NCBI GenBank assembly: GCA_020630595.1
Contig: JAHDBC010000005.1
Span: 1-64,000, forward strand
DNA: 64,000 bases
Direction: 5' to 3'
DNA from: Planktomarina sp.
Lineage (GTDB): Bacteria; Pseudomonadota; Alphaproteobacteria; Rhodobacterales; Rhodobacteraceae
The translations under genes and the position numbers were made by a program. Below, piece after piece: positions 10,235 through 41,998 of the stretch. Numbering within the stretch: the first letter of the stretch is position 1; every line of letters starts with the position of its first letter. The notes under the pieces were generated by a model, which saw nothing but the letters and a program-made list of their open reading frames with translations, was not told the DNA's origin and made no database searches.

Positions 10235-10835
10235 TTTGACCCATTTGATGGCCGCCGCCACGGCACTGCATGCCGGTCATGCCGATTTGCGGGACTTTGT
10301 CGCCATGGGCAATGATCTGGTGGATGGCGACTATCAACGCCAAGACCATCCGGCACAGGCCGTAATGTGCGCACAACACTGGCCGGATGCGCGGCCCGGT
10401 GATCCGCTGGAATTGGCAACGGCGCTGCGCGATGCCTTTGTCGCGGCGGCACCGCTGGCCCAATGGCGCTATACCTATGAAGGGTCCAAAATTGATCCCG
10501 ATTTCATCGAACGGTTCGGCTGTTATTGCATGATCGGCAGCGGTGGATTCTGGTCCAGCGCGCAATTGTCAGGCTATGTGGTCTACATGCCGCCCGGCCT
10601 GCATTATCCGTGGCACCAGCACCCGGCAGAAGAAATGTACGTGATGCTGGCAGGGTCGGCGGAATTTCATCTGCAAGGACAGCCCCCCCAAACCCTTACG
10701 GCGGGGCAGGCCGTGTTTCACCCCAGCGGGGTGCCCCATGCGACCACCACCCACGATGACCCGATGATGGCCTATGTGACTTGGCGCAATCATCTGGATA
10801 TCGTGCCTGAATGGACAGATCCGGGGCTGCGCTGA
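10224..10835 (+). CDS. dddQ: DddQ-like cupin, probable DMSP lyase family
   Basis: 203 residues, the usual DddQ length. The C-terminal cupin has 'HYPWHQHPAEEMY' (about residues 127-139), reproducing the spacing I recall for DddQ: a Tyr three residues before the first His, His-x-His, Glu four residues on, and the proposed base Tyr two after that. A further His in 'GVPHATT' (~172) supplies the last metal ligand. DddQ cleaves dimethylsulfoniopropionate to DMS and acrylate. The start at 10224 overlaps the DMGDH-like gene. Not every DMSP-lyase-like cupin has high DMSP lyase activity, so another onium beta-elimination is possible. Confidence 0.72.
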   Translation: MHPDLTHLMAAATALHAGHADLRDFVAMGNDLVDGDYQRQDHPAQAVMCAQHWPDARPGDPLELATALRDAFVAAAPLAQWRYTYEGSKIDPDFIERFGCYCMIGSGGFWSSAQLSGYVVYMPPGLHYPWHQHPAEEMYVMLAGSAEFHLQGQPPQTLTAGQAVFHPSGVPHATTTHDDPMMAYVTWRNHLDIVPEWTDPGLR

Positions 10836-10848
10836 TGGGGGGTATGGC

Positions 10849-13058: not shown

Positions 13059-13101
13059 CCACCCGCCCCACATTCATATGCCGGAACAAAGGGCCAGCCT
13101 G

Positions 13102-14457
13102 ATGGAATTTTCAAACGAATACCCAACCCACGACCCGGAATGGGTGCAGGACATGCACGCCAATCATTACCTGCAAAGCTGGTCGAAACAGGGGTCGCGT
13201 CCGCGTGTGATCACGGGGGGGCAGGGATCATGGTTTTGGGACAGTGATGGCAAACGGTATCTGGATTTCCAGTCGCAGCTGGTGAACCTGAACCTGGGTC
13301 ACCAACACCCCAAGATCGTTCAGGCGATCAAGGATCAGGCGGACAAGCTGTGCTATATCGGCCCCGCGATGGGATCAGATGTGCGGTCTGAACTGGCCGC
13401 GTTGATGACGCAGATCACGCCGCCGAATATCACATCCACATTCTTTACAACCGGTGGGTCAGCGGCCAATGAAACCGCGATCCGGCTGGCGCGGCATTAC
13501 ACCGGGCGGCACAAGATCATTGCCCGCTATCGCAGTTACCATGGGGCCACAGGGGGCGCGCTGTCCCTGACGGGGGACCCACGCCACCACCTGACACGGG
13601 GCGATATGCCGGGCGTCGTGCGCATGCAGGATCCATACTGTTATCGGTGCCCCATGGGCCACAGCGCCCCGGCCCATTGCCCCGTGTCGCAGGGGGGGCC
13701 GCATCTGGAACAGATTTTGCAGTTCGAAAACCCACAAACCGTGGCGGCGGTGATCATCGAACCCATTGTGGGCACCAACGGCATTCTGGTGCCGCCGGAT
13801 GGATACCTGCAATCCATCCGCGACACCTGCACCAAACACGGCATCCTTTTGATTGCGGATGAAGTGATGGCAGGCTTTGGGCGCACGGGGAAATGGTTTG
13901 GGATGGATCATTGGGGGGTGGAACCCGACATGATCGCATCGGCCAAAGGCATCAATTCCGGCTATGTGCCGCTGGGCACTTTGTCTGTGTCCAAACAGCT
14001 GGCCGATTGGTTGCAGGAGTATCCTTTCCCGGGTGGGCTGACCTATGCCGGGCATCCCTTGGCCTGTGCGTCAGGCGTGGCTGCGATCCGTGCGATGATG
14101 GAAGAAGGCACATTGGACCATGCCACCAAGATGGGTGAAAAAATGCGCGCTGAACTGGCGCGTATGGCAGACCGCCACCCCTGTATCGGCGATATTCGCG
14201 GCAAGGGCATGTTCAACGGCATCGAACTGGTCAAAGACCGCGATACCCGTGAACCGCTGGTGCCCTTTGCGGCCAAGGGTGCGGATGCGAAACCCATGAC
14301 AGACATGATGGGTTTTGCGATGGATCAGGGGCTGTACCTGTCGTTCTTTTCCAATGTGATCCGCCTGACGCCGCCACTGAACATCAGCGAAGACGATATG
14401 ATGACGGGTCTGGAAATACTCGACCGGACTTTAGACATTGCGGACAAAGCACGATGA
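13102..14457 (+). CDS. Class III PLP-dependent aminotransferase
   Basis: 451 residues. The start at 13102 is chosen because AAAGGG lies 8 bases upstream; a longer form from the ATG at 13078 is possible. PLP-site features are visible: 'TTGGSAANETAIRLAR' (phosphate-binding), 'LLIADEVMAGFGRTG' (Asp), and the Schiff-base lysine in 'IASAKGINSGYVPLG'. The internal 'YCYRCPMGHSAPAHCPV' is common in omega-amino-acid aminotransferases. It probably moves the amino group from an amino acid or amine to a 2-oxo acid after demethylation upstream in the pathway. Its stop overlaps the third enolase start as ATGA. Confidence 0.9.
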   Translation: MEFSNEYPTHDPEWVQDMHANHYLQSWSKQGSRPRVITGGQGSWFWDSDGKRYLDFQSQLVNLNLGHQHPKIVQAIKDQADKLCYIGPAMGSDVRSELAALMTQITPPNITSTFFTTGGSAANETAIRLARHYTGRHKIIARYRSYHGATGGALSLTGDPRHHLTRGDMPGVVRMQDPYCYRCPMGHSAPAHCPVSQGGPHLEQILQFENPQTVAAVIIEPIVGTNGILVPPDGYLQSIRDTCTKHGILLIADEVMAGFGRTGKWFGMDHWGVEPDMIASAKGINSGYVPLGTLSVSKQLADWLQEYPFPGGLTYAGHPLACASGVAAIRAMMEEGTLDHATKMGEKMRAELARMADRHPCIGDIRGKGMFNGIELVKDRDTREPLVPFAAKGADAKPMTDMMGFAMDQGLYLSFFSNVIRLTPPLNISEDDMMTGLEILDRTLDIADKAR

Positions 14458-15557
14458 AGATCACCGGCATCACACTTTGGGAAATCCCGCTGACCAGCCA
14501 CGCGACCTATTACATGGCGGCGGGAAAAACCTGTGACACCGTGCTGACGGTCGTGTGCCGGCTGACAACTGACACAGGGCTGCAAGGCTGGGGAGAGGTG
14601 TGCCCAATCCCGCATTACCTGCCTGCCTTTGCCAAAGGTGTGGCCCCTGCGGTTCAGGAAATGGCGCCCCTGTTGCTGGGGGCCAACCCCGTGGGGCCAG
14701 AGGCGTTGATGGATCGGCTGAACGATTGGCTGATCGGGCATGACTATGCCAAATCCATGATCGACACGGCCCTGTGGGATCTGACGGCGCAGGCGGCGGG
14801 GCTGCCGCTTTATGCGCTGTTGGGCGGGCGGGCCGTGAAAGATATGCCGCTGTATCATTCGATCACCTGCGTGGAGCCCGACGAAATGGTGCGCATGGCG
14901 CGGGATGCGTTTGATCAGGGCATGCGGCAGTTTCAGTGCAAACTGGGCGCTGACGATGATTGGCAAGCAGATGTCGAACGCCTGACCAAAGTGCGCGATG
15001 CGGTGGGGCCGGGGCCATTGGTCTATGGCGATTGGAATTGCGGCGCAGACAAGCTGACGGCGACCCGTGTGGGCCGCGCGGTGGCACATCTGGATGTGAT
15101 GCTGGAACAACCTTGCCGCACCATCGAAGACTGCGCCCATGTTCGCCAGGCCACGGGGTTGGCGATGAAACAGGATGAAACGGCGCATGACACGGCGTCG
15201 CTGCTGAAAGCGTGGCAGATGGGCTGCATGGATGCCATGGCGCTGAAGCTTTCGAAATTCGGGGGCCTGTCCAAGGCGCGACAGGCACGGGATTTGTGCC
15301 TGCATCTGGGAACGAAACTGTGCGTTGAAGATACATGGGGGTCCGACATCACGACCTGTGCGGTGCTGCATCTGGCCGCCAGCACGCCCGCCCGGGCGGT
15401 GATGAACACCTGTGATTTGTCTGGCTATGTGGGTCCGCGCCTTGACGTCGGGGCACCTGTGCGGTCAAACGGGCGCATCGCGCCGCCGGATGGTGTGGGG
15501 CTGGGCGTTTCGCCTGATTTGGATGTGTTGGGGACCCCGGTTTTGGAGCTGGCATAG
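14454..15557 (+). CDS. Enolase-superfamily (mandelate racemase/MLE group) enzyme 3
   Basis: 367 residues, third paralogue in the operon. Active-site segments are 'FQCKLGADDDW', 'YGDWNCGAD', 'KQDETAHD' and 'ALKLSKFGG', with 'VEDTWGSDITT' near the end, closer to enzyme 1 than to enzyme 2. The cysteine after the metal-ligand Asp-x-Asn ('DWNCGAD') replaces the usual Arg or Gln at that position. It sits between the aminotransferase gene (ATGA overlap) and the glycerate kinase gene, so all these steps are probably co-expressed. Confidence 0.85.
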   Translation: MKITGITLWEIPLTSHATYYMAAGKTCDTVLTVVCRLTTDTGLQGWGEVCPIPHYLPAFAKGVAPAVQEMAPLLLGANPVGPEALMDRLNDWLIGHDYAKSMIDTALWDLTAQAAGLPLYALLGGRAVKDMPLYHSITCVEPDEMVRMARDAFDQGMRQFQCKLGADDDWQADVERLTKVRDAVGPGPLVYGDWNCGADKLTATRVGRAVAHLDVMLEQPCRTIEDCAHVRQATGLAMKQDETAHDTASLLKAWQMGCMDAMALKLSKFGGLSKARQARDLCLHLGTKLCVEDTWGSDITTCAVLHLAASTPARAVMNTCDLSGYVGPRLDVGAPVRSNGRIAPPDGVGLGVSPDLDVLGTPVLELA

Positions 15558-15575
15558 CCCCAGAAAGGGGCAGTG

Positions 15576-16781
15576 ATGGATCATCCGTTTTACGCAGATG
15601 CATTAAAGGCATTTCAGGCGGGGGTCGCGGCGGCGGATCCGTATAAGGCTGTGGCAGACCACATGCCGATGTTTGAACAACCGCCCCTTGTGATCGCTGT
15701 GGGCAAGGCCGCCATTCGCATGGCCCATGCGGCCCGCGATGCGCTGGGTGGTTTTGCGGATGCGATCATCGTCACGAACCCGGAAAATGCGACCGATGTG
15801 GCGGGGGCCACGGTCTTTGCGGCCGCCCATCCCGTGCCGGATTCCATTGGCATGGCCGCCGGTCAGGCCGTGATCGATGCGTTGCAAACGGCATCCCCCG
15901 GGCGGCCTGTCTTGTGTTTGATTTCGGGCGGGGGATCTGCGCTGTTGCCCGCACCGGTTGCGCCACTGACCTTGGCCGACAAGGCCGCAGTGAACGAAGC
16001 GTTGCTGGCCAGTGGTGCAGATATCGTGACCATGAACATGGTGCGCCAGCAATTGTCTGATCTGAAAGGCGGCGGGCTTTTGCGCCATGCCCAAGGGCCA
16101 GTGACGGCGCTGATCTTAAGCGATGTGATTGGCGATGACCTGCGGGCGATCGCCTCTGGCCCGACAGTGGGCCCGATTGGGTCGCGGTCTTCTGCCCGCG
16201 AAGCTTTGCGCGCCATGGGTGTTTGGGATGGGCTGCCTGCGTCGGTGATCGGCGTGCTGAGCCAGCCTGATCTGGACACGGAATGGCCAGATGCAACCAA
16301 TGTGCTGGTGGGATCGAATGCGATCAGCGTGGCCGCCATGGCGCGGGCCTTGCCCGACGCCACGCGCCACCACGCGCCCCTAGAGGGCAACGTGACAGAG
16401 GCCGCACCGTGGGTCGCGGCTTTGCCCAGCGGCACCCATGTGTTTGGCGGCGAAACCACCGTAACACTGACAGGCACGGGCAAAGGCGGGCGCAATCAGG
16501 ATCTTGCCCTGCGCGTCGCGCTGTTGGCCGAAGCGCAGGATTGGCAGGGCCCATGGCTGTATCTGCAAGGCGGCACGGATGGGCGCGACGGCCCCACGGA
16601 TGCAGCCGGCGGGGTTGTCCACGGTGGCACCTTGGCCGCGATCCGGGCGGCTGGGGTGGATCCCTTGGCGGCCCTGAACAACAATGATGCCTATACCGCA
16701 CTCAAAGCGGGGGATGCCTTGTTGATGACAGGGGGCACGGGCACAAATGTGGCCGACATCGGGGTTTTGATCCGGGGCTAA
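15576..16781 (+). CDS. Glycerate 2-kinase, MOFRL (TtuD/GckA) type
   Basis: 401 residues with the two-domain GCK-II layout: an N-terminal Rossmann-like half with 'ICLISGGGSALLPAP'-type sequence ('LCLISGGGSALLP') and a C-terminal MOFRL domain ending 'GGTDGRDGPTDAAGGVV' and 'LLMTGGTGTNVADIGVLI'. The enzyme phosphorylates D-glycerate to 2-phosphoglycerate with ATP; older annotations call it hydroxypyruvate reductase. ATG 15576 is preferred to the GTG 3 bases before it. As the last gene of the rightward operon it implies that the pathway delivers glycerate or a similar C3 hydroxy acid to central metabolism. Confidence 0.9.
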   Translation: MDHPFYADALKAFQAGVAAADPYKAVADHMPMFEQPPLVIAVGKAAIRMAHAARDALGGFADAIIVTNPENATDVAGATVFAAAHPVPDSIGMAAGQAVIDALQTASPGRPVLCLISGGGSALLPAPVAPLTLADKAAVNEALLASGADIVTMNMVRQQLSDLKGGGLLRHAQGPVTALILSDVIGDDLRAIASGPTVGPIGSRSSAREALRAMGVWDGLPASVIGVLSQPDLDTEWPDATNVLVGSNAISVAAMARALPDATRHHAPLEGNVTEAAPWVAALPSGTHVFGGETTVTLTGTGKGGRNQDLALRVALLAEAQDWQGPWLYLQGGTDGRDGPTDAAGGVVHGGTLAAIRAAGVDPLAALNNNDAYTALKAGDALLMTGGTGTNVADIGVLIRG

Positions 16782-29215: not shown

Positions 29216-29734
29216 TCAGCCGGTTTTGGGGCAGCTTCGCGCCTCTAACGCGACGCGGCGATGGGCCAGGCTTTCTTTGGGAATGTTGGTCAGGGGAACG
29301 GCTTCGCCGCGCCCTGTCACCGAAATATCCGGGGCCATAATACCCATCTGTCGGATCAGGAATTCTGCAACCACTTGCGCCCGCAGATACGACAGGTGCA
29401 GATTGACATCTTCCGGCCCAACCGGGTCCGTGTGCCCAACCAGACGCAAGCATGTTTGCGCCAGATCAGGATGCAACAGCGCATTTGACAACGCAATCAG
29501 CTGATCTTTGGCGGCGGCGTCCAATTTTGCCCCGCCACCGGGAAAGAACACATGGCTGGCCCGGACCGACGGCGAAAGCCCAAGAATATCTGCAATCGGC
29601 GGACAGGCCAGTGGCCGGTCAATCGCGGTTGCAGCGCAATCGGGGTGCGTGGTGTCCAACGCGCCCAGCGGCGTTCCAAGGATCGTCACGGTTGTCGTGC
29701 ACAGCCCCAAAATCAAAAGTTTCAGCTTTGTCAT
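29216..29734 (-). CDS. Exported OmpA-like C-terminal domain protein
   Basis: 172 residues with signal peptide 'LKLLILGLCTTTVTILGTPLGA'. There is no beta-barrel. The C-terminal half is an OmpA peptidoglycan-binding domain: 'VFFPGGGAKLDAAAKDQL' and 'LVGHTDPVGPEDVNLHLSYLRAQVV', the last being the characteristic NxxLSxxRA helix. It would tether to peptidoglycan in the periplasm. It lies between the MocA gene (convergent) and the glycan locus (divergent), so it may belong to the latter. Confidence 0.85.
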   Translation of the reverse strand: MTKLKLLILGLCTTTVTILGTPLGALDTTHPDCAATAIDRPLACPPIADILGLSPSVRASHVFFPGGGAKLDAAAKDQLIALSNALLHPDLAQTCLRLVGHTDPVGPEDVNLHLSYLRAQVVAEFLIRQMGIMAPDISVTGRGEAVPLTNIPKESLAHRRVALEARSCPKTG

Positions 29735-29785
29735 GTCGTCCCCCAAACGCCAACGTCATGCGCACCGTGATAGCGCCCAGTCTTT

Positions 29786-29835: not shown

Positions 29836-29876
29836 AACCGCCCATGGTCTGCATCGATATTGTTCATGGGGGACGC

Positions 29877-31001
29877 ATGGCGAAAGCGCGGATGATATGG
29901 CTGGACGGACTGCGTCTGCTGGCCGGGGTTTCGATGGTGGGGTTGCACGCGACGTCTGACGCGCAGGGCCTGCCATGGGTAGATTATGATGTTTCAGATC
30001 GATGGGGGCCGCTGTTCATTCGGACCGTCCTGTACGTGGCGCGGACCGAATTGTTTTTGATCATTTCGCTGTTTTTGCTGTTGCTGTCGCTGGACAAACG
30101 CCCGCGCGGGTATCAGGCCACAATCGCAGAACAGGCGCGTCGGTTGTTGGTGCCTTTCGTATTTTGGACCGTGTTTTTCGCGTTCTACAACCTGATAAAG
30201 GCCAATGCGTTTCAGTATGGGCCGTGGGCGGTAACCCAGCTGATGACACCCCGTGTTTGGCTGGAATATCTGCTGTTGGGAACATCGAAATACCACATGC
30301 ATTTTCTGCCGACGCTGTTCGGGCTGATCCTGTTTTATCCGTTGTTTTTGCTGGCAAAATCAAAGCCGTGGCTTGGTGTTTTGGTTCTTGCGGCACTGGT
30401 GTGCAAACGGGAAATCGACGGGTTTATCTGGGCCAATTATTACGACAGCGACGCGTTGGCATGGGCCTTGCGGGCCACGAAAATCGTCACCTATTGCGGC
30501 TATGGCATGGTGGCGGGGGCGGCGGTATCGCTGTGGCAGAACGGCTTTCAGGGGCAGCGTCTGTTTTTGGCCTGCGCCGTGGTCGGATGTGGGCTGTTTG
30601 CGATCAAGATTCACGCCATGGCGTTGACCGCACATTCGGGTGCGTGGCCCTTTCAGTATACACCGGGGTATTGGGCTGATTTCTTGATGCCTGCGGTTTT
30701 GTTTTTGGGGGTTATGGCCGTGTCAGCGGCGCGGTGGCCGTCGGTTCTTTCGCGCCTCGCGCCCTATTCGTTTGGCATATACCTGTGCCACCCGATCTTT
30801 CTGGATTTGGCGGAAATCGGATTGCGGGATGTGGCATGGTCGCCCACTGCGATTGTGGTGACCAAGATCGCATTTGCAGTGGTTTTGACATCCATTCTGG
30901 TGCGTGCCCTGTCGCGCAGCGCGGTTCTGGGCTGGACCGTCGGGTTGGGCCCGTTGCCACGCATGACATTCCTGAAAACAAAAGGGGCAAATCAATGTTG
31001 A
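29877..31001 (+). CDS. Acyltransferase 3-family membrane protein (glycan O-acylation)
   Basis: 374 residues from the ATG at 29877 (site GGGGGA), with about ten membrane helices. The start 'MIWLDGLRLLAGVSMVGLH' matches the family N-terminus with Arg and His of the active-site region (usually 'DxLRxxAxxxVxxxH'). 'YHMHFLPTLFGLILFYPLFLLAK' and 'APYSFGIYLCHPIFLDL' are typical internal and C-terminal motifs. Such proteins move acetyl or succinyl groups onto exported polysaccharides. It opens the glycan locus and overlaps the next gene by 7 bases (ATGTTGA). Confidence 0.88.
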   Translation: MAKARMIWLDGLRLLAGVSMVGLHATSDAQGLPWVDYDVSDRWGPLFIRTVLYVARTELFLIISLFLLLLSLDKRPRGYQATIAEQARRLLVPFVFWTVFFAFYNLIKANAFQYGPWAVTQLMTPRVWLEYLLLGTSKYHMHFLPTLFGLILFYPLFLLAKSKPWLGVLVLAALVCKREIDGFIWANYYDSDALAWALRATKIVTYCGYGMVAGAAVSLWQNGFQGQRLFLACAVVGCGLFAIKIHAMALTAHSGAWPFQYTPGYWADFLMPAVLFLGVMAVSAARWPSVLSRLAPYSFGIYLCHPIFLDLAEIGLRDVAWSPTAIVVTKIAFAVVLTSILVRALSRSAVLGWTVGLGPLPRMTFLKTKGANQC

Positions 31002-32230
31002 TCCGTGTTGATGATATTTTGGACCTGCCCGCATTCCGATTGCGGCGCCGGTTGCCGGGGCAGGGACTGACGTCTGTCATTTCAACCTTGCCGCGCGTGT
31101 TGGAAGGATCGGATTGCACGGGCGCGATCTTGATGCTGGATCAGTTGCGGGCCTTTCGCCAAAGCGAAGCCCTCGCATTGACAGAGGCGATTCTGGCGAC
31201 TGGTGGCCGTGGCATATCCGCTATTGTTGCGGATGGCGCAGTGGCCGCCGCGCTGACCCGCGCTGGTTTGGGGCAGTTTGCGCAGATCGTTTCGACGGTG
31301 GATGGGCTGTGCGATCAGCCGCCCAACGGATCCTTATCCCATCATGCGGCCGTCATGTTTTGTGACCGACGGGTCCCCTTTTTGGGGCCGATGGCACAGC
31401 TGGACCCCCATGATCTTGCCGATCCCACTGGCAGCACCCCGTGGCTTGATACGCTGCGGACCCTTGCCCAGACCGGCATCACGCAGGTACAGATCGTGAT
31501 CCGCCCGGATCAGGAATGCTATGTCCCTGCGTTGCGCAGGCTTTGCCCGCGCGGTGTGCATCTTCGATTTGTTTTGGCGGAACATGGGCCGCTTCAGGCG
31601 GTCAGCCGGATCAGCGACAATGGACTGGGTCATGCCGGTCCAACGGTGTTGATCGACGGGTGGGCGGATGCGTCGCCGCGGTGTCTAACGGCATTGGCAT
31701 TGCGCCATGATCCTGACCGGCTGACGCATTTGCAATCTGGCGGGAAAGATCAGGATGCCCGGGGGATCAGCATCGTGTCACCCGGCATGGTCGGTGCAAT
31801 TTGTTACGATAACACACCATGGCATTTGGGCGTGCAATTGGCGCGTCACCGCAATCTGATCGCCGTGCCAGATATCAACTTTGCCCCGCTGGATCGCGGC
31901 AGCCTGACGGGGGCATGCGCGGTTCTGACTCGACAGGTTTCTGGCCAATCCCAGGTGCATGGGACCGCCCGCGTGTCGCGCCGTGCAAACGTCAATCAGG
32001 GGTGTTGGATTGGGGCCAACTGCCGCATCGATGCGGACGCCCATCTGGAAAACGTGGTGTTGTTGCCAGGAACACAGGTCGCTGCAGGCACATGGTTGTC
32101 CGACATGGTGGTTGGCCCCGATTGGGCGGTTGATCTGAAATACGCTTGGGCCACGCCGCTAAACCTGTCTGCGGCGGACGGTTGCAAGCCCATCGCACAA
32201 GTGGCCCAACAGCTTGGCAAAATTGCATGA
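30995..32230 (+). CDS. Hexapeptide-repeat protein with an N-terminal domain of unknown type
   Basis: 411 residues. The C-terminal part (~310-375) is a left-handed beta-helix: 'GTARVSRRANVNQGCWIGANCRID' and 'ENVVLLPGTQVAAGTWL', as in sugar nucleotidyltransferases and acyltransferases. The first ~300 residues have an alternating alpha/beta pattern reminiscent of sugar-phosphate nucleotidyltransferases, but the GxGxR nucleotide motif is absent. The order acyltransferase, this gene, GT2 suggests a role in precursor supply or acyl transfer for the glycan. I do not recognise a named family. Confidence 0.7.
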   Translation: MLIRVDDILDLPAFRLRRRLPGQGLTSVISTLPRVLEGSDCTGAILMLDQLRAFRQSEALALTEAILATGGRGISAIVADGAVAAALTRAGLGQFAQIVSTVDGLCDQPPNGSLSHHAAVMFCDRRVPFLGPMAQLDPHDLADPTGSTPWLDTLRTLAQTGITQVQIVIRPDQECYVPALRRLCPRGVHLRFVLAEHGPLQAVSRISDNGLGHAGPTVLIDGWADASPRCLTALALRHDPDRLTHLQSGGKDQDARGISIVSPGMVGAICYDNTPWHLGVQLARHRNLIAVPDINFAPLDRGSLTGACAVLTRQVSGQSQVHGTARVSRRANVNQGCWIGANCRIDADAHLENVVLLPGTQVAAGTWLSDMVVGPDWAVDLKYAWATPLNLSAADGCKPIAQVAQQLGKIA

Positions 32231-32249
32231 TCAAGGGAACTGAAACTTC

Positions 32250-33911
32250 GTGACTGTCCAATATTACAAGGCTTTTGAAGACCGTCGCCCGCCACAGCCG
32301 CGGACATTGTCACCCCTGCGGCAGGGCCTTTGGCAGTTCTTGGCAAGCTGGATGCTGGGACTTGCCGCTTGGTATTTCCTGTGGCGTTGGACACAATCCC
32401 TGAACCCCGATGCAATGGTGTTTTCCATTGTGATCGCCACGGCAGAAACGCTGTTTTTGGTCGGTATGATCTTATATCTTTATGATACTTGGTCAGAACC
32501 GCCGTTGCCAGAAATCGTGGACCCTGATCCGCTGAAGGCGGGCGGTCGAACGGTGGATGTTTTCATCACAACCTATGACGAACCCTATGAAATGGTCGAA
32601 GACAGCATCCGGGATGCGCGTGCGCTGATTGTCCCAGTCGGCTGGTCGTGCAGGGTCCATGTGTTGGACGATGGCGATCGCCCGACATTCCGTCATCTGG
32701 CGGACCTGCACGGGGCGATGTATCATCGCCGCGACACGAACACAGGGTTCAAAGCCGGCAATCTAAAGAACGCGCTGTTGCATACAGATGGTGATTTCAT
32801 CGTCATCGCCGATGCCGACACGCGATTGTTTCCGCAGTTTTTGCAACGAACCTTGGGCCATTTTCATGATCCGACGGTCGCATGGGTTCAGACGCCCCAT
32901 TGGTTTTATGATGTGCCCGAACCGCCGAAACAGCGCAATTGGCTGCAACGGACCTTTGGTTTGGGCCATGATCCGTTTCTGGTCGATCCGTCGCTGTTTT
33001 TTGATGTGATCCTGCGCCGCCGGGATCGCCACGGCGCATCCTTTTGTTGTGGGGCCGGGTCTGTGCACCGCCGCGAAGCCATTTGCGCCGCCGCGCTTGC
33101 GGATCCTTCGCCAGCCGCCCTTGGGGCAGGCACGCAACCGTTCATTTTTCACGTGTCCGAAGACATTCACACGTCCATCCGACTGCATGCAGGGGCAGGG
33201 GGCAGATGGCGGTCCGTGTATCACCCATGGGTCGAAGCACGTATGCTGTCGCCGTGGAGTTTGGATGCATGGGCCGCACAAAAGCTGAAATATGCAGGCG
33301 GCACCTTCGATATCTTTCTGAACCACAAAGCGCCGTGGCGGCGCGGCATGCCATGGAAAATACGGATGCACTATCTGACCACCATCTGGTCGTACCTAAG
33401 TGTCTTTCCGATGCTTGTGTTGTTTTTCGCACCCGTCTTTACACTGTTCACGGCGATTGCACCGGTTGCGGCCTATTCATCGGAATTCTTCATCCGCCTG
33501 TTGCCGATGGCGATCATGGCAGAACTGGCCCTTATGATAGGAAGCAAAGGGTACGATATTCAGGCTGCACGCACTTTGAACATTGCAACGGCCCCTTATG
33601 TGCTGCGCGGCTTTTTTCAGGCCCTGACGCGGCGCAAGATCGGGTTCCGCCCGACCCCGAAAACACTGAAATCCGGATCAGAATTTCGGTTTGTCAGCTG
33701 GCAAATCGTGGCGCTGATCGTGTTTGGCGCCGCAGCCGTTCATGGCGTTGGGCAATATCTGTCCGGAAACACCGCATATACGCTGGGTCTTCTGACCGTG
33801 AACGGGTTTTGGGTCCTTTACAACATGTCAGTTCTTTGGCGCGTCGTGCGTCTGGGAAGTTGGCAGCCTGATGTTTCTCATTCCGACGCTGGAGGCGCCG
33901 AATATGTCTAA
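32250..33911 (+). CDS. Cellulose synthase-like GT2 membrane glycosyltransferase
   Basis: 553 residues from a GTG at 32250. Two N-terminal membrane helices, a GT-A domain (~95-350) and four C-terminal helices are seen. Catalytic signatures: 'FITTYDEPYEM' and 'VLDDGDRP' (UDP site), 'GFKAGNLKNAL', 'IADADTRLFP' (DxD, ~187) and 'SEDIHTSIRLH' (TED-like, ~303). The usual QxxRW is 'QKLKY' here (~344). No PilZ domain follows, and no BcsB or BcsC gene is present. It would polymerise a processive beta-glycan across the inner membrane. Its 3' end overlaps the DUF3131 gene by 8 bases. Confidence 0.9.
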   Translation: MTVQYYKAFEDRRPPQPRTLSPLRQGLWQFLASWMLGLAAWYFLWRWTQSLNPDAMVFSIVIATAETLFLVGMILYLYDTWSEPPLPEIVDPDPLKAGGRTVDVFITTYDEPYEMVEDSIRDARALIVPVGWSCRVHVLDDGDRPTFRHLADLHGAMYHRRDTNTGFKAGNLKNALLHTDGDFIVIADADTRLFPQFLQRTLGHFHDPTVAWVQTPHWFYDVPEPPKQRNWLQRTFGLGHDPFLVDPSLFFDVILRRRDRHGASFCCGAGSVHRREAICAAALADPSPAALGAGTQPFIFHVSEDIHTSIRLHAGAGGRWRSVYHPWVEARMLSPWSLDAWAAQKLKYAGGTFDIFLNHKAPWRRGMPWKIRMHYLTTIWSYLSVFPMLVLFFAPVFTLFTAIAPVAAYSSEFFIRLLPMAIMAELALMIGSKGYDIQAARTLNIATAPYVLRGFFQALTRRKIGFRPTPKTLKSGSEFRFVSWQIVALIVFGAAAVHGVGQYLSGNTAYTLGLLTVNGFWVLYNMSVLWRVVRLGSWQPDVSHSDAGGAEYV

Positions 33912-35214
33912 TAGTCTTTCCCTGAAATCGCTGTGGTTCATGGGCGGCCTTCTTGCTGCTGCTGGAACGGCGACGTGGCTGGATGGTGCGACGATCCGCC
34001 TGGCCGACCCATTGGCGGGCCGCGTGGATTTTCAGGAACCGCTTTACGCCTTGGCCGATCACCGTCCGCTGACCTACAAGGAACAGCAGGCTGCACAAAT
34101 TGCCTGGGACTTCATCGAAAAGAACACACAGCCCGAAACCGGTTGGGTCAATTCGGTGGCATGGTTTCCATCCAGCACGCTGTGGGATCAGGGATCCTAT
34201 CTGATGGCCCTTGTGTCGGCGGATGTGCTGGACATCATCGACGACGCAGAATTTGACGACCGCGCAACCCTGTTTCTGGAAAGCCTTGCCCGCATTGAAT
34301 TGATCGACGGCGTGCTGCCAAACAAGGTGTACAACACACAGACCCTGCAAATGACGGACTATGCCGATACGCCCACGCCAGACGGCATCGGGTGGTCGGC
34401 CCTGGATATTGCGCGGCTTTTGCTGTCGTTGCGTATTCTGGAACGGCATGCCCCGCATCTGGGACCGCAAATTCGCCAAACGCTTGTCAGCTGGGATCTG
34501 GATGCCGTTGCCGTCGAAGGTGAACTGGTCGGCACCAGCCTGCGGAATGGGGAACTTGTTGCGTTGCAAGAAGGGCGGATAGGGTATGAACAATACGGTG
34601 CGCGTGCGGCCGCCATGTGGGGGCTAGACGTATCGATGGCCCTTTCGTCGCGCCGTGTGCTGGGCTGGCGCACGATTAATGGTGCTGATGTGCCTGTCGA
34701 TCTGCGCAGTGCTGCGCGGTATCAAACGATCAATCCCACATCATCGGAACCCTATGTTCTGATGGGGTTGGAAATGGGGTTCGATGCGGAAAGCCGGGCG
34801 CTGGCCGAACAGGTTTTGGCCGCACAGGAAGCGCGCTTTGATGCATCGGGTCACATGACCATCGTATCCGAAGACCATTTGGACGACGCGCCCCATTTTG
34901 CCTATGCGTCCGTGTTTTCAAACGCGCGAAACTGGGCTGTCGTGGATGCGGACGGGGGGCAACACCCTGATATGCGCACGCAAAGCACCAAAGCAAGTTT
35001 TGGGTGGGATGCCTTGTTTGACACCCCCTTCACCAACCATTCCGTCGCGCGTGTCTCTGGGTTGGGGCGTTCTGGGATCGGCTGGTACGCAGGGATTTAT
35101 GAAAAGACCGGCGCACGCAACAAAGCACTGGCGTTGAACACAAACGCCGTGATCCTGACCGCGCTGCATTACCGTGTGCACGGCCCGTTGTGGAATATTC
35201 ACGGGTCTGATTGA
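33904..35214 (+). CDS. DUF3131-type protein, copy A (membrane-anchored or exported)
   Basis: 436 residues from the ATG at 33904, behind GGAGG. One N-terminal hydrophobic segment ('SLWFMGGLLAAAGTATWL') acts as signal or anchor. The rest is a DUF3131-like all-helical domain with 'NSVAWFPSSTLWDQGSYL', 'GVLPNKVYNTQ', 'IGWSALDIARLLLSLRIL', 'GRIGYEQYGA' and 'NTNAVILTALHYRVHGPL'. Each is shared with copy B at 36895-38583. The layout recalls alpha/alpha-barrel glucan hydrolases, so glycan trimming or transfer is plausible. No activity is proven to my knowledge. Confidence 0.82.
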   Translation: MSNSLSLKSLWFMGGLLAAAGTATWLDGATIRLADPLAGRVDFQEPLYALADHRPLTYKEQQAAQIAWDFIEKNTQPETGWVNSVAWFPSSTLWDQGSYLMALVSADVLDIIDDAEFDDRATLFLESLARIELIDGVLPNKVYNTQTLQMTDYADTPTPDGIGWSALDIARLLLSLRILERHAPHLGPQIRQTLVSWDLDAVAVEGELVGTSLRNGELVALQEGRIGYEQYGARAAAMWGLDVSMALSSRRVLGWRTINGADVPVDLRSAARYQTINPTSSEPYVLMGLEMGFDAESRALAEQVLAAQEARFDASGHMTIVSEDHLDDAPHFAYASVFSNARNWAVVDADGGQHPDMRTQSTKASFGWDALFDTPFTNHSVARVSGLGRSGIGWYAGIYEKTGARNKALALNTNAVILTALHYRVHGPLWNIHGSD

Positions 35215-35293: not shown

Positions 35294-36895
35294 TTATTGG
35301 GTCGGGTTCAGAATTGTTTCAAAGTATGCGCCGATGGGTTGATACAGATCCGATTGCCCTGCGGCGACCTGTGTGTCGCTGGCCAATTCAACTGTTGGGT
35401 CGTCGGCCGCCATGTCGGTTTCTGCGACAACGTCAGCGGCTTGATCTTCGGCCGGTGTGTCCTCTGCCACTGCGGCTGGCGCGGCGGCCATGTCTTCGGC
35501 AGGCGCATCTTGCGTATCCGCTTGGGCGTCTGTCTTTTTCGTGTTGTCAGACGTTTCCAACGCCCGTTCCAAATCAATCGCCGCAGCAGAAGCATTCAGA
35601 TCGGCCTCAAGCTCTTCCAGAATGGTTTGGGCAAGCGTGTCGTGGTAGCTGCGCGAAATGGCATCTGATTGTGCGGCTTGATCTTCGGGCTTGATGAATT
35701 GCATCAACACCAGCGCAGTTTTCGGATCAAGGCCCATTTCGGCGACCAGATACTGCAAATGCCGCACTTCATCGGGCAATGCGTCCGACGGCATTGGTGT
35801 TGAATCAACATCCTGTTGGACCTGATCGCGCCATTCGGCATTGGCCTGTGGTGACGGAAATTGCGGTTGGGGCTGAAGCGGCGCGGGTTGCTGAAGCGGT
35901 TGGGCCAGCTTTACAGCTGTCGTCGCCACGCTGAGTTGGCCCAGCTCATTTTGCAGACGCTGGATCATCGCCTCCATCTGTTTCATTTGTTCCTGCACCG
36001 GATCAGCCGCGGGTGGTTGTGCCGCTTCGATGGTCGTTGCTTCGTTTTGGCGGTTTTCCAACAGCCGGCGCAATTCGGTCAGATCTGTTTGCATGGCATC
36101 CAACGCGGCTGCGCTGTCTTCATCGGCATAGGCCGCACCTTGCGAAACCTGACCGATCGACAGGGGCTGTGGCATCGGGTTCACCCAATTCTGCGCTTCA
36201 GTCAGGGTTTCGCGCGTCGTTCCCGTGCGGGCATTTGGCACTGGCCAGCCCGTGGGTAGCACGGTGTAATCCTGCCGCGCGGAAATCCAGCGCAAATAGG
36301 CAGTGACCGCACCGAACCCTTTCAATGATATGGTCGCCAGCGTGTTTTCCCCCCTGCGCACAACCAGATCGCCGCCCGTGGACAGCAAACGTTCGAATTG
36401 CAGTTCCAGCGGTTCAAGAATGCGCATCGGCAGCGCAAGTTCGGTTGTGGTGTCCGCCAAAAACAGCTGATCCGTGGGTTGCAAACCGTCCATCATCAGG
36501 TGGATTGCTTTTTGATCCGTCAAAACCATGCGCAACGCACCCTTTTGCGCCATGCAACTGTAGGTGCGCGGTCTGCAGACCACTTCGAATACGTCATCGT
36601 CCAGACGGGGCGATGGTGAAAACCGTGCGTATCCATCGGGGTCAAACCGGAAATATACGCCTTCGACCAACCCTTCTTGAAATGTTGGCCAACCAAAGGC
36701 CCCGCGCAGGTTTTGCTGGGCTTCGCGCGCGCCATCGGCGAACAGAAGACGCGTATCAAGGATCACGTTTTCAGATGCGAATGCCGCGGAAAGTTGTGTG
36801 TCAGTATCCCCGGACGCGGCGATGGTTTGGGCGACTGCAACGGGGGCCGCTGCAAGGGCCGCAATGAATGCGGAAAGTGAGAGTGCGCGGTTCAT
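35294..36895 (-). CDS. Exported coiled-coil protein of unknown function in the glycan locus
   Basis: 533 residues. Signal peptide 'LSLSAFIAALAAAPVAVA' at the N-terminus; residues ~25-230 form an unrecognised folded domain with two cysteines ('VVCRPRTYSCMAQKG'). Around 255-320 is a likely coiled coil ('DLTELRRLLENRQ', 'QMKQMEAMIQRLQNELGQL'), then Pro/Gln-rich and Ala/Asp/Glu-rich low-complexity stretches to the end. Periplasmic location is likely. Its start is translationally coupled to DUF3131 copy B (TAATG). A scaffold role in a glycan complex, like BcsB, is only a guess. Confidence 0.7.
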   Translation of the reverse strand: MNRALSLSAFIAALAAAPVAVAQTIAASGDTDTQLSAAFASENVILDTRLLFADGAREAQQNLRGAFGWPTFQEGLVEGVYFRFDPDGYARFSPSPRLDDDVFEVVCRPRTYSCMAQKGALRMVLTDQKAIHLMMDGLQPTDQLFLADTTTELALPMRILEPLELQFERLLSTGGDLVVRRGENTLATISLKGFGAVTAYLRWISARQDYTVLPTGWPVPNARTGTTRETLTEAQNWVNPMPQPLSIGQVSQGAAYADEDSAAALDAMQTDLTELRRLLENRQNEATTIEAAQPPAADPVQEQMKQMEAMIQRLQNELGQLSVATTAVKLAQPLQQPAPLQPQPQFPSPQANAEWRDQVQQDVDSTPMPSDALPDEVRHLQYLVAEMGLDPKTALVLMQFIKPEDQAAQSDAISRSYHDTLAQTILEELEADLNASAAAIDLERALETSDNTKKTDAQADTQDAPAEDMAAAPAAVAEDTPAEDQAADVVAETDMAADDPTVELASDTQVAAGQSDLYQPIGAYFETILNPTQ

Positions 36896-38583
36896 TAGAA
36901 ATCAGCCTCTTTCTGGACGGAATGACGAATAGCTGGCAACCAGTCCGCCTGTGTCGGCGGATCGGGCATATTGCGCTTTTGGCGAATGTCTTGATCGCGA
37001 AAGGCGGTGTACCAGACTTCGGTGTTTCCGGTATAGGGGGTCAGAATCGGGCCCTGCACCTTGTGCAAAAGGGCCGTCAGGATGATCCCGTTGTTGTTGG
37101 CTGTGAAGATTTCAACGCGGCCCTGGCCCCGTTCATACAGCCCTTCGTACATCCCGTTTTCGGGATCATAAAGTTCGATAATCGCATCAAAAAGCGCATC
37201 GGTGTATTCCGTATCCCACAGAACCCACATGCCAATGGCCGCCTTTGCCGCGACAGCGGCGTGGTCGGGCACATAGTCCCCGCGCGGCGTGACCGTGTTC
37301 CATGGATAGCCATCCGAAAAGATCGTATCGTAGGTAAAATAAGGTGGTCCTTTGACGTTGTGTTCGGAACGCGCCGTCATAAAGCCCGTCTGACGCCAAC
37401 GATTTTCCTGAACCTGATAGATCCTGTCGGCGAATTCCGCACGCCAGCCATCCGTAGACAGCCATTCGGGGCTGCTGTCGTCGTGGGGCATGTCCCAGCC
37501 CAGTTCCAACCCATCTTGCAGATAGGATTCCGTTACCACGTAGTTTTGGGAATGAAACACCCGCGGATCACGCCCATCATAGGGCACTTGCACGCCAAAG
37601 ATGCTGGCTGTCAGAAACGGTTCTGCACGGTGGGCCAGAATTGGCTGGAAGCCCCATAGGGCGAACCCTTTGGCCGCATATTCTTCGTAGCCCAGACGCC
37701 CTTCCTGCGCATAGACGGTTTCGCCCGTTTCCTTGTCAACGAATGCACCCCAAAGCACGCCCTCTTCGTCGACGGCATTGGAATAATCCCATTTCAGCAG
37801 GACGCTGTCGATTGTGTTGGCCAAATAGGGATAGCGGTTTTTCAAAATCCGCATCCAGACCAGGAACCGCCCGATATCAAGCGCCGAAAAGCCAATTTCG
37901 CCCGGCTTGTTGGTATAGTCCACCTTTTCGCCGGTTTGGGTGTGATACACCTTGTTGGGCATTTCACCACGGAACAGATCCAACCCCTTGATCGTGGTCA
38001 AAAGGCGCATCATGCGTTGGTCAAAATCCGGTTTTTCGATGATGCACAATTCATAAGCCGCGACGGCCCCCGCAATATAGGATGCGGTGTCCCACAAGGT
38101 GGTCGATGGGTAGTTGCCCACCGAATTCGCAAGACCGGTGTTTTCTTGTGTAAAATTTTCGAAATATCGCCAGGCAACATGGGCCGCTTTCAATTCGCGG
38201 TCCGTCAGAAAACCGCGACGGGACTGGAAATTGCGCACATAGGCATTGCGCCGATCATATCCGGGCGCGCGTCCCCGTTCCAAATCCAGCCCATCAAAAT
38301 AGTTGGATGACATTTCGCACATTCGCGGCGGTTTTTGCCGTCTTGGTTCCTGTCGAACAACGCTTGTTACGGCCACCGGTTGGTTGCCGCGCATCAGGGC
38401 AGGAATACGGTCAAGGGCCCCGCCCGCGACGATGGGTTCTTCCTCTTCTTCCCGGAACAGGAACATGTCGCGCGCTGCATTGCCAACACCCCATGCTGTT
38501 CCGCCGATGATTGCGGATGACGATGCAAGGACAAGTGCGGCAAAGACCCACGATTTGCGTGACGGTGATGATTGTTTTGTCAT
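36895..38583 (-). CDS. DUF3131-type protein, copy B
   Basis: 562 residues; the ATG at 38583 is chosen because a membrane anchor follows ('SWVFAALVLASSSAIIGGTAWGVG'). A charged linker (FREEEEEP) leads to a DUF3131 domain (~130-530) with 'NSVGNYPSTTLWDTASYI', 'GEMPNKVYHTQT', 'IGFSALDIGRFLVWMRIL', 'GRLGYEEYAA' and 'NNNGIILTALLHKVQGPI', all paralogous to copy A. It is longer at both ends. It lies on the opposite strand from copy A, with the coiled-coil gene next after it, so the locus has one DUF3131 protein in each operon. Confidence 0.82.
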   Translation of the reverse strand: MTKQSSPSRKSWVFAALVLASSSAIIGGTAWGVGNAARDMFLFREEEEEPIVAGGALDRIPALMRGNQPVAVTSVVRQEPRRQKPPRMCEMSSNYFDGLDLERGRAPGYDRRNAYVRNFQSRRGFLTDRELKAAHVAWRYFENFTQENTGLANSVGNYPSTTLWDTASYIAGAVAAYELCIIEKPDFDQRMMRLLTTIKGLDLFRGEMPNKVYHTQTGEKVDYTNKPGEIGFSALDIGRFLVWMRILKNRYPYLANTIDSVLLKWDYSNAVDEEGVLWGAFVDKETGETVYAQEGRLGYEEYAAKGFALWGFQPILAHRAEPFLTASIFGVQVPYDGRDPRVFHSQNYVVTESYLQDGLELGWDMPHDDSSPEWLSTDGWRAEFADRIYQVQENRWRQTGFMTARSEHNVKGPPYFTYDTIFSDGYPWNTVTPRGDYVPDHAAVAAKAAIGMWVLWDTEYTDALFDAIIELYDPENGMYEGLYERGQGRVEIFTANNNGIILTALLHKVQGPILTPYTGNTEVWYTAFRDQDIRQKRNMPDPPTQADWLPAIRHSVQKEADF

Positions 38584-38750
38584 GGGCCCCCCCGGTTTTG
38601 GCTCAACATCCCGGTGATACCGCTTGGGTCTTAACAAACTGGAAAACTTACAAATTTACGGATCAGGCAGGCCCAAAGCCTGTTGAAACAGCACTTTCTT
38701 AACGGTCCGGGGCGCATAAATGCCCGCAACGCAGAGGGCGGGGAAAAAAG
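38584..38750. other. Divergent promoter region of the exporter and DUF3131-B operons
   Basis: The 167 bases between the divergent starts are AT-richer than the flanks ('AACAAACTGG', 'AAAACTTACAAATTTACGG'). They contain a short inverted repeat CAGGC-CCAAA-GCCTG. Promoters for both directions should lie here, but no unambiguous -35/-10 pair was found. Confidence 0.45.
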
Positions 38751-40748
38751 ATGAAACATTTTCAGCAGACCGACATTCAAAGCCACGAAAGTGTTGATCC
38801 AGTGGTGTCACAAGATCACGAAACCACGATCCAGACCGTTATGATGAACGACCGTGGATTGCCCCGTTGGGCCGCACTGATCAGTCTGTTGTTTTCGGTT
38901 GCGTCCGCGGTCTGCGTGGCCGGGATTGCGATTGTGGCCATCTTGTTTCAAAGTCTGGTCGCGCAAAACGGGGATGTGTTTGGCACGTTGCCGTTTCTGG
39001 CGCTGGGCATGGTGCCGGTGATCGGCCTTTACGTTTTGGAATTTGCGCAGGTCAAAGCCTTTGCCGGGCTGCAAAAGGTGCAACAGTCCGTGCGGCTGCG
39101 GACCGGGGCCATTGCGGGGCTTTTGATTATCCTTGCGCTTGCGTTTGTGCATCCGCTTTTGATCTTGCCAACTGCTGTGTCCGTTGCCGTTGGTGCCGCA
39201 TGTATGGCGTTGGCGGTTCGGTTCGGACGCTGGCACCCGGCTTGGGAATTTTCCCCGGCAGAGGCTGTGTCGATCCTGTCGGGCCGTGATGCAGAAGGGT
39301 TCACATATGCGCAATCCCAGCCCGTTGCCCCTGCAGCGCTGACGGCACTGAAATGGTTTATTCCCGCTTGTGCGATTGTTTTGTCGGTCGCATTGGGCAG
39401 TTGGATGGTGGCACAATCCATTCTGATGCTGCCTGCATTGATCGCCGTGGCCGGATTGTCGTTTTGGGCCAGCGTTCAGATTGCGGCCTTTTTGTTGGCC
39501 CGTTTCATCAATGGGGCGTCCGCAGATCCCCATCACGCGCCGACGGTTGTGGATCAAACCGATGTGCCGCCCGCATTCCGCGAAAGCTGTAACGCCGAAG
39601 GTCTGATCGTGCATGGGCTGACGGTTTCAGATGCAAATGGCGCCCGGCTTTTGTCCGATCTGCGTTTCAATCTGGCACCGGGGACAATCGTTGCAGTGAC
39701 AGGGGCGGCGGCCTGCGGGAAATCCGTTCTGGCGCGGGCCTTGGTCAATCCATTTTCGATTGCGGGCGCATCTGTGACTGGCGCCGTTCAGTTTCGTGAT
39801 CAAAGCCTGTGGCAACGCAGCACACGCGACATGGGTCTTTATGCCGGGCTGATCGCCGAAACGCCCCTTATCCTTGCACAAAATGGCGCAGCCAACGCTA
39901 TGGCATTTCAGTCTGATGGGTATCGGGATCGGGCGCGGCGGTGTCTGGAAAGTATCGTTTTTTCGTCCGAAGTTGTTGACCGTATCCTTGGCGCGCCTGA
40001 TGCGACGCGCCTGTCGATGTCGGACCAACGCCGGTTGGAACTGTCGCGGATGTTTTTTCTCGCGCCTTTTGTGATGGTTCTGGACCGGCCTGAAAATCAT
40101 TGTGATCCCGCAACCGTGCGCGCGCTGGCAGCCCGTTTGCAACAGGAACGCCGGGCAGGGCGCATTGTTATCTTGGTGACCGAAGACCGCGCGCTTTTGG
40201 AAATTTGCGACAGGATGATGGTCTTGCAAAACGGGCGCATCATTGACCATGGCCCCGCCGCTGAAATTCTGGGCCGCACGTCCACGGGCTGGGCCAGATT
40301 CGTGTGTGACCAGCGTTTGGAATCCGAAGATGTTCTGACCGATTGGGTGCGGTCCCATTTCAAGCGCAAAGGCGATGAAGGCAATCGTGATACCGTGGCA
40401 GCCATTGCAGCGGAACTTTTGGCGTTTTCGTGTCAGGATATTGCGCCGGTTGGAACGGAAAAAATCGATTTCGATTTCAAACATTACCAAGGGCATTGCG
40501 TTTTGAAACTGACAGACACCGGGCGTTTGCTGAGCAGTGGTCAAATTCAGCGCGCACAGCGTGCAAGCCTGAACGAAAAGGGATCGTCCATGACGCCTTT
40601 GGGGGCCGTGTTGCGCGGTGCTTTGGGGTTCGAACAGGTCATGGAAGATGGCAAGCGCACGATCAGCCTGACCATCAAAACCTATGACCCACGATTGACA
40701 GGTGGATCTGACACCGCCCCGGCGCCTCGTGTCAGGGAAACAGCCTAA
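38751..40748 (+). CDS. ABC exporter-like protein (type I secretion/PrtD-like layout) with degenerate ATPase
   Basis: 665 residues: six membrane helices (~40-260), an ABC domain (~285-520) and an unusual ~130-residue C-terminal extension. Walker A is intact ('GAAACGKS', ~318). The signature is 'LSMSDQRRLELSR' instead of LSGGQ (~421). Walker B reads 'VMVLDRPE', so the catalytic Glu after the Asp is Arg (~439-447). The H-loop reads 'VTEDRALL', with Glu for His (~477). ATP hydrolysis is probably lost or strongly reduced. It overlaps the HlyD-like gene by one base and faces the DUF3131-B operon, suggesting a structural or regulatory export role for the glycan system. Confidence 0.82.
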   Translation: MKHFQQTDIQSHESVDPVVSQDHETTIQTVMMNDRGLPRWAALISLLFSVASAVCVAGIAIVAILFQSLVAQNGDVFGTLPFLALGMVPVIGLYVLEFAQVKAFAGLQKVQQSVRLRTGAIAGLLIILALAFVHPLLILPTAVSVAVGAACMALAVRFGRWHPAWEFSPAEAVSILSGRDAEGFTYAQSQPVAPAALTALKWFIPACAIVLSVALGSWMVAQSILMLPALIAVAGLSFWASVQIAAFLLARFINGASADPHHAPTVVDQTDVPPAFRESCNAEGLIVHGLTVSDANGARLLSDLRFNLAPGTIVAVTGAAACGKSVLARALVNPFSIAGASVTGAVQFRDQSLWQRSTRDMGLYAGLIAETPLILAQNGAANAMAFQSDGYRDRARRCLESIVFSSEVVDRILGAPDATRLSMSDQRRLELSRMFFLAPFVMVLDRPENHCDPATVRALAARLQQERRAGRIVILVTEDRALLEICDRMMVLQNGRIIDHGPAAEILGRTSTGWARFVCDQRLESEDVLTDWVRSHFKRKGDEGNRDTVAAIAAELLAFSCQDIAPVGTEKIDFDFKHYQGHCVLKLTDTGRLLSSGQIQRAQRASLNEKGSSMTPLGAVLRGALGFEQVMEDGKRTISLTIKTYDPRLTGGSDTAPAPRVRETA

Positions 40749-41998
40749 TGCGAATGAAACAGGTCCCCTTTGGACCGCCCCGGCTGCGTGCCGTTGGGTG
40801 GTTTGGGTTGGCGGTCACAGGCTGCTTGGCCATGGTGGTTGGCGCGTTGATCGCAGCAGATCAAGTGATGCACCGCCCGCAAATGACGTTGGTCGGTACA
40901 TTGCAATCCGCGCAGCGTCCGGTCCCGGTTGTTTTGCCCGGGGGGGCACAGATTTCTGAATTGCTTGTGAAAAACGGGGATCATGTTGCCCAGGGCCAGA
41001 CCCTTGCATCCTATGATCACGCGGCCCTTTCAGATCTGGCCGACAGCCTTGATATTAAGCTGTTGGTGATGCGGTTTGATCGCGAATGCGCGCTGGACCA
41101 TGCGGTGATCCAAGACATGCAAGATTGGACACAATCTGCAGGTCCCGACGTGCGCGGGCAACTTAGGTTGGCGGCGGAATCTTGTCTGGCACGGCATCAA
41201 ACCGACAGCCGCGCGTTGCGCGCCAGCATGCGCGAACGAGACATGCTGCAAGACCGCGCGCGGCTGATAGATCAGCACATCCTTGCGCTGCAGGGCGAAC
41301 CGGTGGCAACCAATCAATCCGGTCGCGCCCGTACGATTATGTCTGCGCTGCTCGCACAGTCTGAAATTGATACCCAATTGGCGCAAACTGCCCTGCAAAT
41401 CGAAGATGCGGCGGCGATCTTGAAACAGATGTCGATTGATCGCACCGCGGCGCTTGATGCGCAAATCAACGATTTGAAAGCGCAACGGGCGCAACTTGCG
41501 CGGTTGTTGGCAGCACCGCGCCTCGATGCGCCCACGGATGGGCGGGTGCGCCGGGTGCGGGTGCCATCCACCCGCGATGCCCTGCCGCAGGATGTGGTGG
41601 TTATGGAAATCGTTCCCGATGTGGCCGCGCCATATGTTCTGGATGTCCAGATCGATCCGGAAATTGCAGATCGTCTGGCCCCGGGCACCCGCTTTGATTT
41701 GCGGATGTCTGGGTTGGATCGGCGCGATGATCCGGGGGCAACAGCCATCTGGAACCCAATTTCAAAGATCGCTTCGGCGGATGGCACAGCCCTTCGGGTG
41801 CAAATCCCATTGACGCCAGATTCCGAAGAACGTCTGTTGCAACGCCAAGACCGGATCGCATTTTCAGATGCCACCAGTGCGGCCGTGGTGACATTTCATC
41901 CGCAAGCCGTTGGGGTGCGTCAGTCAGTCGTTTCGGCGTTAAACAGGCTTGTGGCAGACACGGATATCGCCGCGCTGTTCGGACTTTCCGCATCCTGA
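40748..41998 (+). CDS. HlyD-family membrane fusion (periplasmic adaptor) protein
   Basis: 416 residues with one N-terminal membrane helix ('GWFGLAVTGCLAMVVGALIAADQ'). A biotinyl-lipoyl-like half-motif follows, 'GGAQISELLVKNGDHVAQGQTLASYDH', then a helical hairpin (~110-260) and a beta-rich end with 'LDAPTDGRVRRVRVPS'. Such proteins link an inner-membrane exporter to an outer-membrane channel. It is co-transcribed with the pseudo-ATPase gene (overlap TAATG). No TolC-like gene lies nearby. Confidence 0.85.
   Translation: MRMKQVPFGPPRLRAVGWFGLAVTGCLAMVVGALIAADQVMHRPQMTLVGTLQSAQRPVPVVLPGGAQISELLVKNGDHVAQGQTLASYDHAALSDLADSLDIKLLVMRFDRECALDHAVIQDMQDWTQSAGPDVRGQLRLAAESCLARHQTDSRALRASMRERDMLQDRARLIDQHILALQGEPVATNQSGRARTIMSALLAQSEIDTQLAQTALQIEDAAAILKQMSIDRTAALDAQINDLKAQRAQLARLLAAPRLDAPTDGRVRRVRVPSTRDALPQDVVVMEIVPDVAAPYVLDVQIDPEIADRLAPGTRFDLRMSGLDRRDDPGATAIWNPISKIASADGTALRVQIPLTPDSEERLLQRQDRIAFSDATSAAVVTFHPQAVGVRQSVVSALNRLVADTDIAALFGLSAS

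Follow-up and report, generated by a model that had tools for sequence, protein, structure and literature searches.

The motif QxxRW serves as the accepted hallmark of processive beta-glycan synthases. In the stretch of Planktomarina sp. DNA analysed here (64,000 nucleotides; the window), a gene for a cellulose-synthase-like family 2 glycosyltransferase (GT2) carries QKLKY instead, and the locus raises the question of whether this enzyme is active, what it makes and how it is controlled. The original prediction held that the exchange, together with missing cellulose synthase partners, pointed to a product or control different from that of cellulose. The QxxKY finding is real and broader than that prediction stated, and the enzyme appears from its motifs and predicted fold to be of the processive GT2 synthase kind. 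The genes discussed below are as follows.

29216 to 29746, minus strand: outer-membrane-type protein with an OmpA domain; divergent from the operon and conserved in the subclade
29844 to 31001, plus strand: AT3 membrane acyltransferase (PF01757), the operon's first gene, found in 27 of 28 full subclade loci
30992 to 32230, plus strand: diverged STAS/nucleotidyltransferase/left-handed beta-helix protein; a profile detects the hexapeptide part only
32250 to 33911, plus strand: BcsA-like GT2 synthase of the QxxKY type, an open frame of 553 amino acids with a GTG start
about 33279 to 33293, plus strand: QKLKY motif, residues 344-348 of the GT2, by alignment to BcsA
33871 to 35214, plus strand: DUF3131 protein a (PF11329, E 2.6e-124), with an N-terminal membrane helix and a helical-barrel domain
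35294 to 36895, minus strand: secreted coiled-coil-rich protein with no Pfam family, conserved close to the synthase in 50 of 80 loci
36895 to 38637, minus strand: DUF3131 protein b, the second paralogue (PF11329, E 4.3e-118)
38751 to 40748, plus strand: ABC ATPase resembling PrtD of type I secretion, often adjoining DUF3131 b
40748 to 41998, plus strand: HlyD-like periplasmic adaptor

The plus-strand genes from 29844 to 35214 (AT3, nucleotidyltransferase-like, GT2 and DUF3131 a) form a compact run with overlaps or short gaps. The probable ATG start of DUF3131 a, near 33904, overlaps the GT2 stop.

The QxxKY motif and its clade

Searching the PDB with phmmer aligns QKLKY to the QRIRW segment of BcsA from E. 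coli (E 1.8e-35) and to QRGRW in Rhodobacter BcsA (E 2e-27). The exchange falls exactly on the QxxRW column, so the predicted position was right and the motif does not lie elsewhere in the alignment. The enzyme retains DDG, KAGN, DxD (as DADTR), QTP and SED, the last at the TED position; DxD and SED are therefore kept, as had been claimed. A gating-loop-like FxxTPK segment, comparable to the FxVT type, reads FRPTPK in the window enzyme. The features that define the processive GT2 superfamily, a GT-A domain with DDG, DxD and ED, a transmembrane channel and a gating loop, were all found. The AlphaFold model (pLDDT 85.4) has BcsA as all of its top PDB matches in Foldseek, with TM (query) up to 0.78, followed by plant CesA, CslF6, hyaluronan synthase and Cgs.

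The only Pfam matches in the 553-residue protein are GT2 domains, with no PilZ domain detected, and neither PilZ (PF07238) nor BcsB (PF03170) has a match anywhere in the 94.5%-complete genome of the organism, which bears out the original reading as regards PilZ and BcsB. TIGR03030, the NCBI cellulose-synthase model, gives 192 bits, below its cut-off of 699.1. The enzyme shares with BcsA (GT2; TIGR03030, PDB 4HG6/9FMV) the GT-A fold and transmembrane channel, the DDG, DxD, QTP and ED motifs and the gating-loop-like FxxTPK, but it has QxxKY for QxxRW, QTP(H/Q)W for QTPH(H/F) and SED for TED, and its system is without PilZ and BcsB and far under the CelA cut-off. Sequence comparison supports the view that this is not a Bcs-type cellulose synthase.

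Relatives came from four sources: the genus and family of the window's organism, 84,980 species genomes (412 relatives confirmed, 80 of them retained), a phylum-wide draw and plasmids; the viral contigs searched yielded none. All 105 clade relatives (99 distinct sequences) have Q344, K347 and Y348; they span alphaproteobacteria, gammaproteobacteria and Desulfoluna, and one of them carries QRVKY. Q, R and W occupy the same positions in all 30 outgroup sequences (BcsA, BgsA, CrdS-like and Nostoc). W218, in QTP(H/Q)W, is likewise present in 105 of 105 clade members, with H, D, F, Y or T at that position in others, and further clade marks are H301, SED for TED, FCCGA for FFCGS and MLSP for GLAT/GLAP. 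The clade has thus replaced QxxRW completely, and QxxKY is a lineage signature, not a mutation. Given its invariance and the co-fixed marks, the simplest account is a single origin of the substitution, fixed along with other acceptor-site changes; one idea is that W218 might compensate for the lost Trp. Sequencing error or chance as the source of QKLKY is ruled out by the conservation in all 105 relatives.

In a tree of 89 sequences (quick search, midpoint root, SH-aLRT support without bootstrap, one cyanobacterial sequence), the QxxKY enzymes form a single clade with SH-aLRT 100 and a stem of 1.24 changes per column. BcsA, BgsA and a CrdS-like protein, the last a plasmid gene assigned by gene order and sitting on a long branch, fall together on the opposite side. 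The two sides are separated with strong support, and the window GT2 is not placed with BgsA or CrdS, so that the phylogeny called for in the original prediction sets the QxxKY enzymes apart from all three. The nearest neighbour of the clade is a Nostoc plasmid protein with QRLRW (support 98), whose locus holds DUF3131-like, SpoIIE-type phosphatase, receiver-domain and HATPase-like frames. Because this QRLRW enzyme already adjoins DUF3131, the DUF3131 partnership seems older than the motif change.

The exchanges of R for K and W for Y are conservative, preserving charge and an aromatic platform, and the motif by itself is therefore no argument for a new product; on this point the original prediction goes further than the motif allows. 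We predict that Lys would direct its positive charge toward the diphosphate and that Tyr would serve as the aromatic platform for the acceptor sugar. Alternatively, QKLKY could be the mark of an inactive pseudo-synthase that acts as a regulator or scaffold, as it departs from a motif whose Trp touches the acceptor in BcsA (PMC6821405). The cassette has been kept across phyla, however, and we rejected this highly improbable alternative because every other catalytic residue is invariant in the 105 relatives. That the synthase polymerises a beta-glycan and exports it is very probable, as its retained motifs and channel suggest. The large natural QxxKY clade makes it easy to ask what counts in Arg and Trp: charge, stacking or linkage.

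Within the genus, 3 of 20 genomes, the window's included, encode the synthase; its distribution is patchy, and it is thus an accessory trait. A record titled Mycobacterium sp. KBS0706 groups with the alphaproteobacterial QxxKY enzymes; it may be mislabelled, or the locus may have been transferred.

The conserved gene cassette

The comparison covered 61 loci for which 20 kb of sequence or more was available, 28 from the window's subclade and 33 from elsewhere. The conserved cassette consists of the GT2, one to three DUF3131 genes and an AT3/OpgC acyltransferase. Loci of the window's subclade encode DUF3131 (28/28), AT3 (27/28), the nucleotidyltransferase-like protein (24/28) and GH16 (16/28). 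In none of these 28, the window included, are separate SpoIIE, STAS or HATPase genes linked to the synthase. The other 33 loci encode a partner switch of SpoIIE phosphatase (33/33), STAS (32/33) and HATPase (28/33), along with DUF3131 (32/33), histidine kinase (27/33), AT3 (22/33), GH2 (5/33) and GH9 (3/33). Among 299 genomes, 11 of the 12 with a QxxKY synthase encode a full-length DUF3131, as do 4 of the 287 without the synthase (Fisher p 4.6e-16, a guide only, as the genomes are related). This partner set (DUF3131 and AT3/OpgC), which the original prediction did not use, is the stronger ground for doubting that cellulose is the product.

The cassette is common in marine Rhodobacterales and extends to Photobacterium, Thiothrix, plasmids of Pantoea and Salmonella and, apparently, Klebsiella. 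Annotated plasmid loci of Pantoea, Salmonella and Paracoccus carry OpgC, SpoIIE, STAS and ATP-binding genes beside the synthase. The large Pantoea and Salmonella plasmids bear the full cassette, with OpgC, SpoIIE, STAS, three DUF3131 genes and GH2. The accessory locus 'block 3b' of Klebsiella pneumoniae includes the same components, as compared by their listing in a paper that gives the locus without function or motif (PMC12974863).

Sphingobium and Devosia loci hold a QxxKY synthase without an adjacent DUF3131, indicating that DUF3131 is not strictly required. One of these, at 9365-15929 of a Sphingobium plasmid, is a cassette variant with a separate PilZ gene, a SPOR protein, GH16 and BcsS. 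On a Sulfitobacter plasmid (4553-10131), a diverged DUF3131 within a protein of ~840 amino acids adjoins a glycosyltransferase of ~1,020 amino acids, forming a second DUF3131-glycosyltransferase system.

The genes of the cassette are routinely annotated as cellulose synthase, and its polymer appears undescribed. In the literature searched, the motif string QxxKY was found in no paper, and we found no functional account of DUF3131 and nothing on a DUF3131 synthase cassette, on a partner switch or STAS with exopolysaccharide, or on the Thiothrix sheath glucosaminoglucan.

DUF3131 and clan GH-S

The model of DUF3131 a (pLDDT 92.8) has an N-terminal helix at residues 14-44. Its top 19 Foldseek matches are mostly beta-1,2-glucanases of several GH families and Cgs; putative glucoamylases sharing this fold and the Cgs cyclisation domain on its own are also among its best matches, with BcsZ appearing later. 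Full-length TM values are about 0.57-0.63 only. By sequence, a DUF3131 profile picks up the Thermoanaerobacter Cgs cyclisation domain (8wy1, E 3.5e-6) and gives E 0.014 against Agrobacterium Cgs. Compared profile to profile, DUF3131 matches ten Cgs-type proteins with P 2.7e-6 over about 95 columns and GH144-type proteins more weakly. In addition, Pfam PF11329 exceeds its own cut-off in frames of about 2,800-2,970 amino acids, a size typical of Cgs. DUF3131 shows both the (alpha/alpha)6 barrel and the kinship to GH189 and GH144 by which membership of clan GH-S (GH144/162/189/192-194) was assessed.

Kinship of DUF3131 to clan GH-S is well supported by these fold and profile matches, and the Pfam family seems to belong to the same clan as the GH189 Cgs cyclisation domain and beta-1,2-glucanases. 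This previously unrecognised link is the most useful by-product of the analysis, as it gives a concrete substrate class for the domain. Significant sequence similarity to GH189 is limited to the N-terminal ~100 residues of DUF3131. E234, E293 and E334 are invariant, and E411 is conserved at 94%. Aligned with several hhalign settings, DUF3131 and GH189 give two rival pairings to E1356/E1442, with E234 or E293 as the acid and E334 or E411 as the second residue, neither significant past the N-terminal ~100 residues. No significant alignment was obtained to the region of the XcSGL clan residues E239, F286 and Y367.

Cgs resembles the window system in combining a BcsA-like glycosyltransferase with a DUF3131-related helical-barrel domain of the GH-S type, and in having no PilZ (PMC10901819). 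It differs in being a single polypeptide of ~2,800 amino acids that keeps the RW motif and has a cytoplasmic cyclase and no export channel, whereas the window system is split into separate genes with a membrane-anchored DUF3131.

Product and control

Given the analyses above, we favour as probable an active, processive beta-glucan synthase, with conservative R-to-K and W-to-Y exchanges, working with membrane-anchored DUF3131 glycosidases or transglycosylases and free of PilZ control. In the mechanism that we propose, a membrane-embedded, inverting, processive GT2 would elongate and export a beta-glucan-like polymer, its motif having changed from QxxRW to QxxKY once in the clade, with W218 co-fixed. 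The polymer would likely be processed by DUF3131 and acylated.

The signs of linkage conflict: DUF3131 and OpgC point to beta-1,2, whereas the kinship of the GT2 and the GH16/GH9 neighbours point to beta-1,3/1,4. OpgC succinylates osmoregulated periplasmic glucans (OPGs) based on beta-1,2 linkages, and it is annotated beside several synthases; the window acyltransferase itself matches PF01757 only, the OpgC domain (PF10129, OpgC_C) being found in some relatives. A beta-1,2-linked product is further suggested by the match of DUF3131, in fold and in sequence, to beta-1,2-glucanases and the Cgs cyclisation domain, and characterised members of GH144, GH162, GH189 and GH192-194 act on beta-1,2-glucan (PMC12102758, PMC10834661). 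However, the GT2 is BcsA-like, its closest solved relative being BcsA and not Cgs or OpgH, and the neighbouring GH16 (16/28 subclade loci) and GH9 (3 loci) are families with beta-1,3/1,4 substrates. Moreover, Cgs has its glycosyltransferase and cyclase domains in the cytoplasm (PMC10901819), in contrast to DUF3131 with its N-terminal helix. We consider a beta-1,2-linked product rather unlikely.

The same kinship of the catalytic domain to BcsA and BgsA, the GH16, GH9 and GH2 genes of the cassettes and the conservative nature of both exchanges would fit a beta-1,4, beta-1,3 or mixed-linkage glucan of the kind made by BgsA or CrdS, with DUF3131 having drifted to that substrate and QxxKY without effect on the product. 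We regard this as possible, if somewhat less likely than not. The BgsA mixed-linkage glucan synthase of Sinorhizobium and the CrdS-type curdlan synthase do have a BcsA-like core without PilZ, and an HlyD-type adaptor lies nearby in their loci as in the window. They nevertheless keep QxxRW and occupy the other half of the tree, far from the long-stemmed QxxKY clade, and in the loci viewed no DUF3131 adjoins them; DUF3131 itself points elsewhere.

It seems unlikely that the product is a heteropolymer, for example a glycan containing glucosamine or mannose, for which the linked nucleotidyltransferase would supply the sugar nucleotide. Gammaproteobacterial cassettes do encode an intact sugar-nucleotidyltransferase (PF00483, E 6.8e-54), and the GH2 and GH9 families include exo-glucosaminidases. 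The GxGTR nucleotide-binding signature, which is present in the Photobacterium copy, is nevertheless lost in the window protein and missing from 25 of the 38 members of its cluster, so that the nucleotidyltransferase would not be needed in the window's organism. We consider it similarly doubtful, though worth stating, that QxxKY synthase and DUF3131 form a second, split-gene route to secreted or periplasmic beta-1,2-linked or cyclised glucans. Such a route would involve OpgC-like acylation, SpoIIE/STAS/HATPase switching instead of c-di-GMP, DUF3131 as a new GH-S transglycosylase family and a QxxKY motif tuned to linkage.

As regards control, PilZ is also absent from BgsA, CrdS and Cgs (PMC5567048, PMC6821405, PMC10901819), and its absence is thus not telling by itself. 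The positive sign of different control appears to be the partner switch linked in most relatives. As far as the genomes show, control differs from that by PilZ and c-di-GMP, as predicted. We suggest that the synthase is controlled by a route other than PilZ, with the adjoining SpoIIE phosphatase, STAS and HATPase as the candidate switch in most relatives. In the window's subclade, the diverged STAS-nucleotidyltransferase protein may take the place of this module, possibly as a regulatory pseudoenzyme. Its N-terminal STAS part is detectable in 14 of 26 relatives of the 30992-32230 protein; in the window copy, where a profile does not detect it on its own, it is placed by position only, and a regulatory role for it would be a guess by analogy with these relatives. 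The organism's own genome encodes one SpoIIE gene and a STAS-HATPase pair, both unlinked to the synthase.
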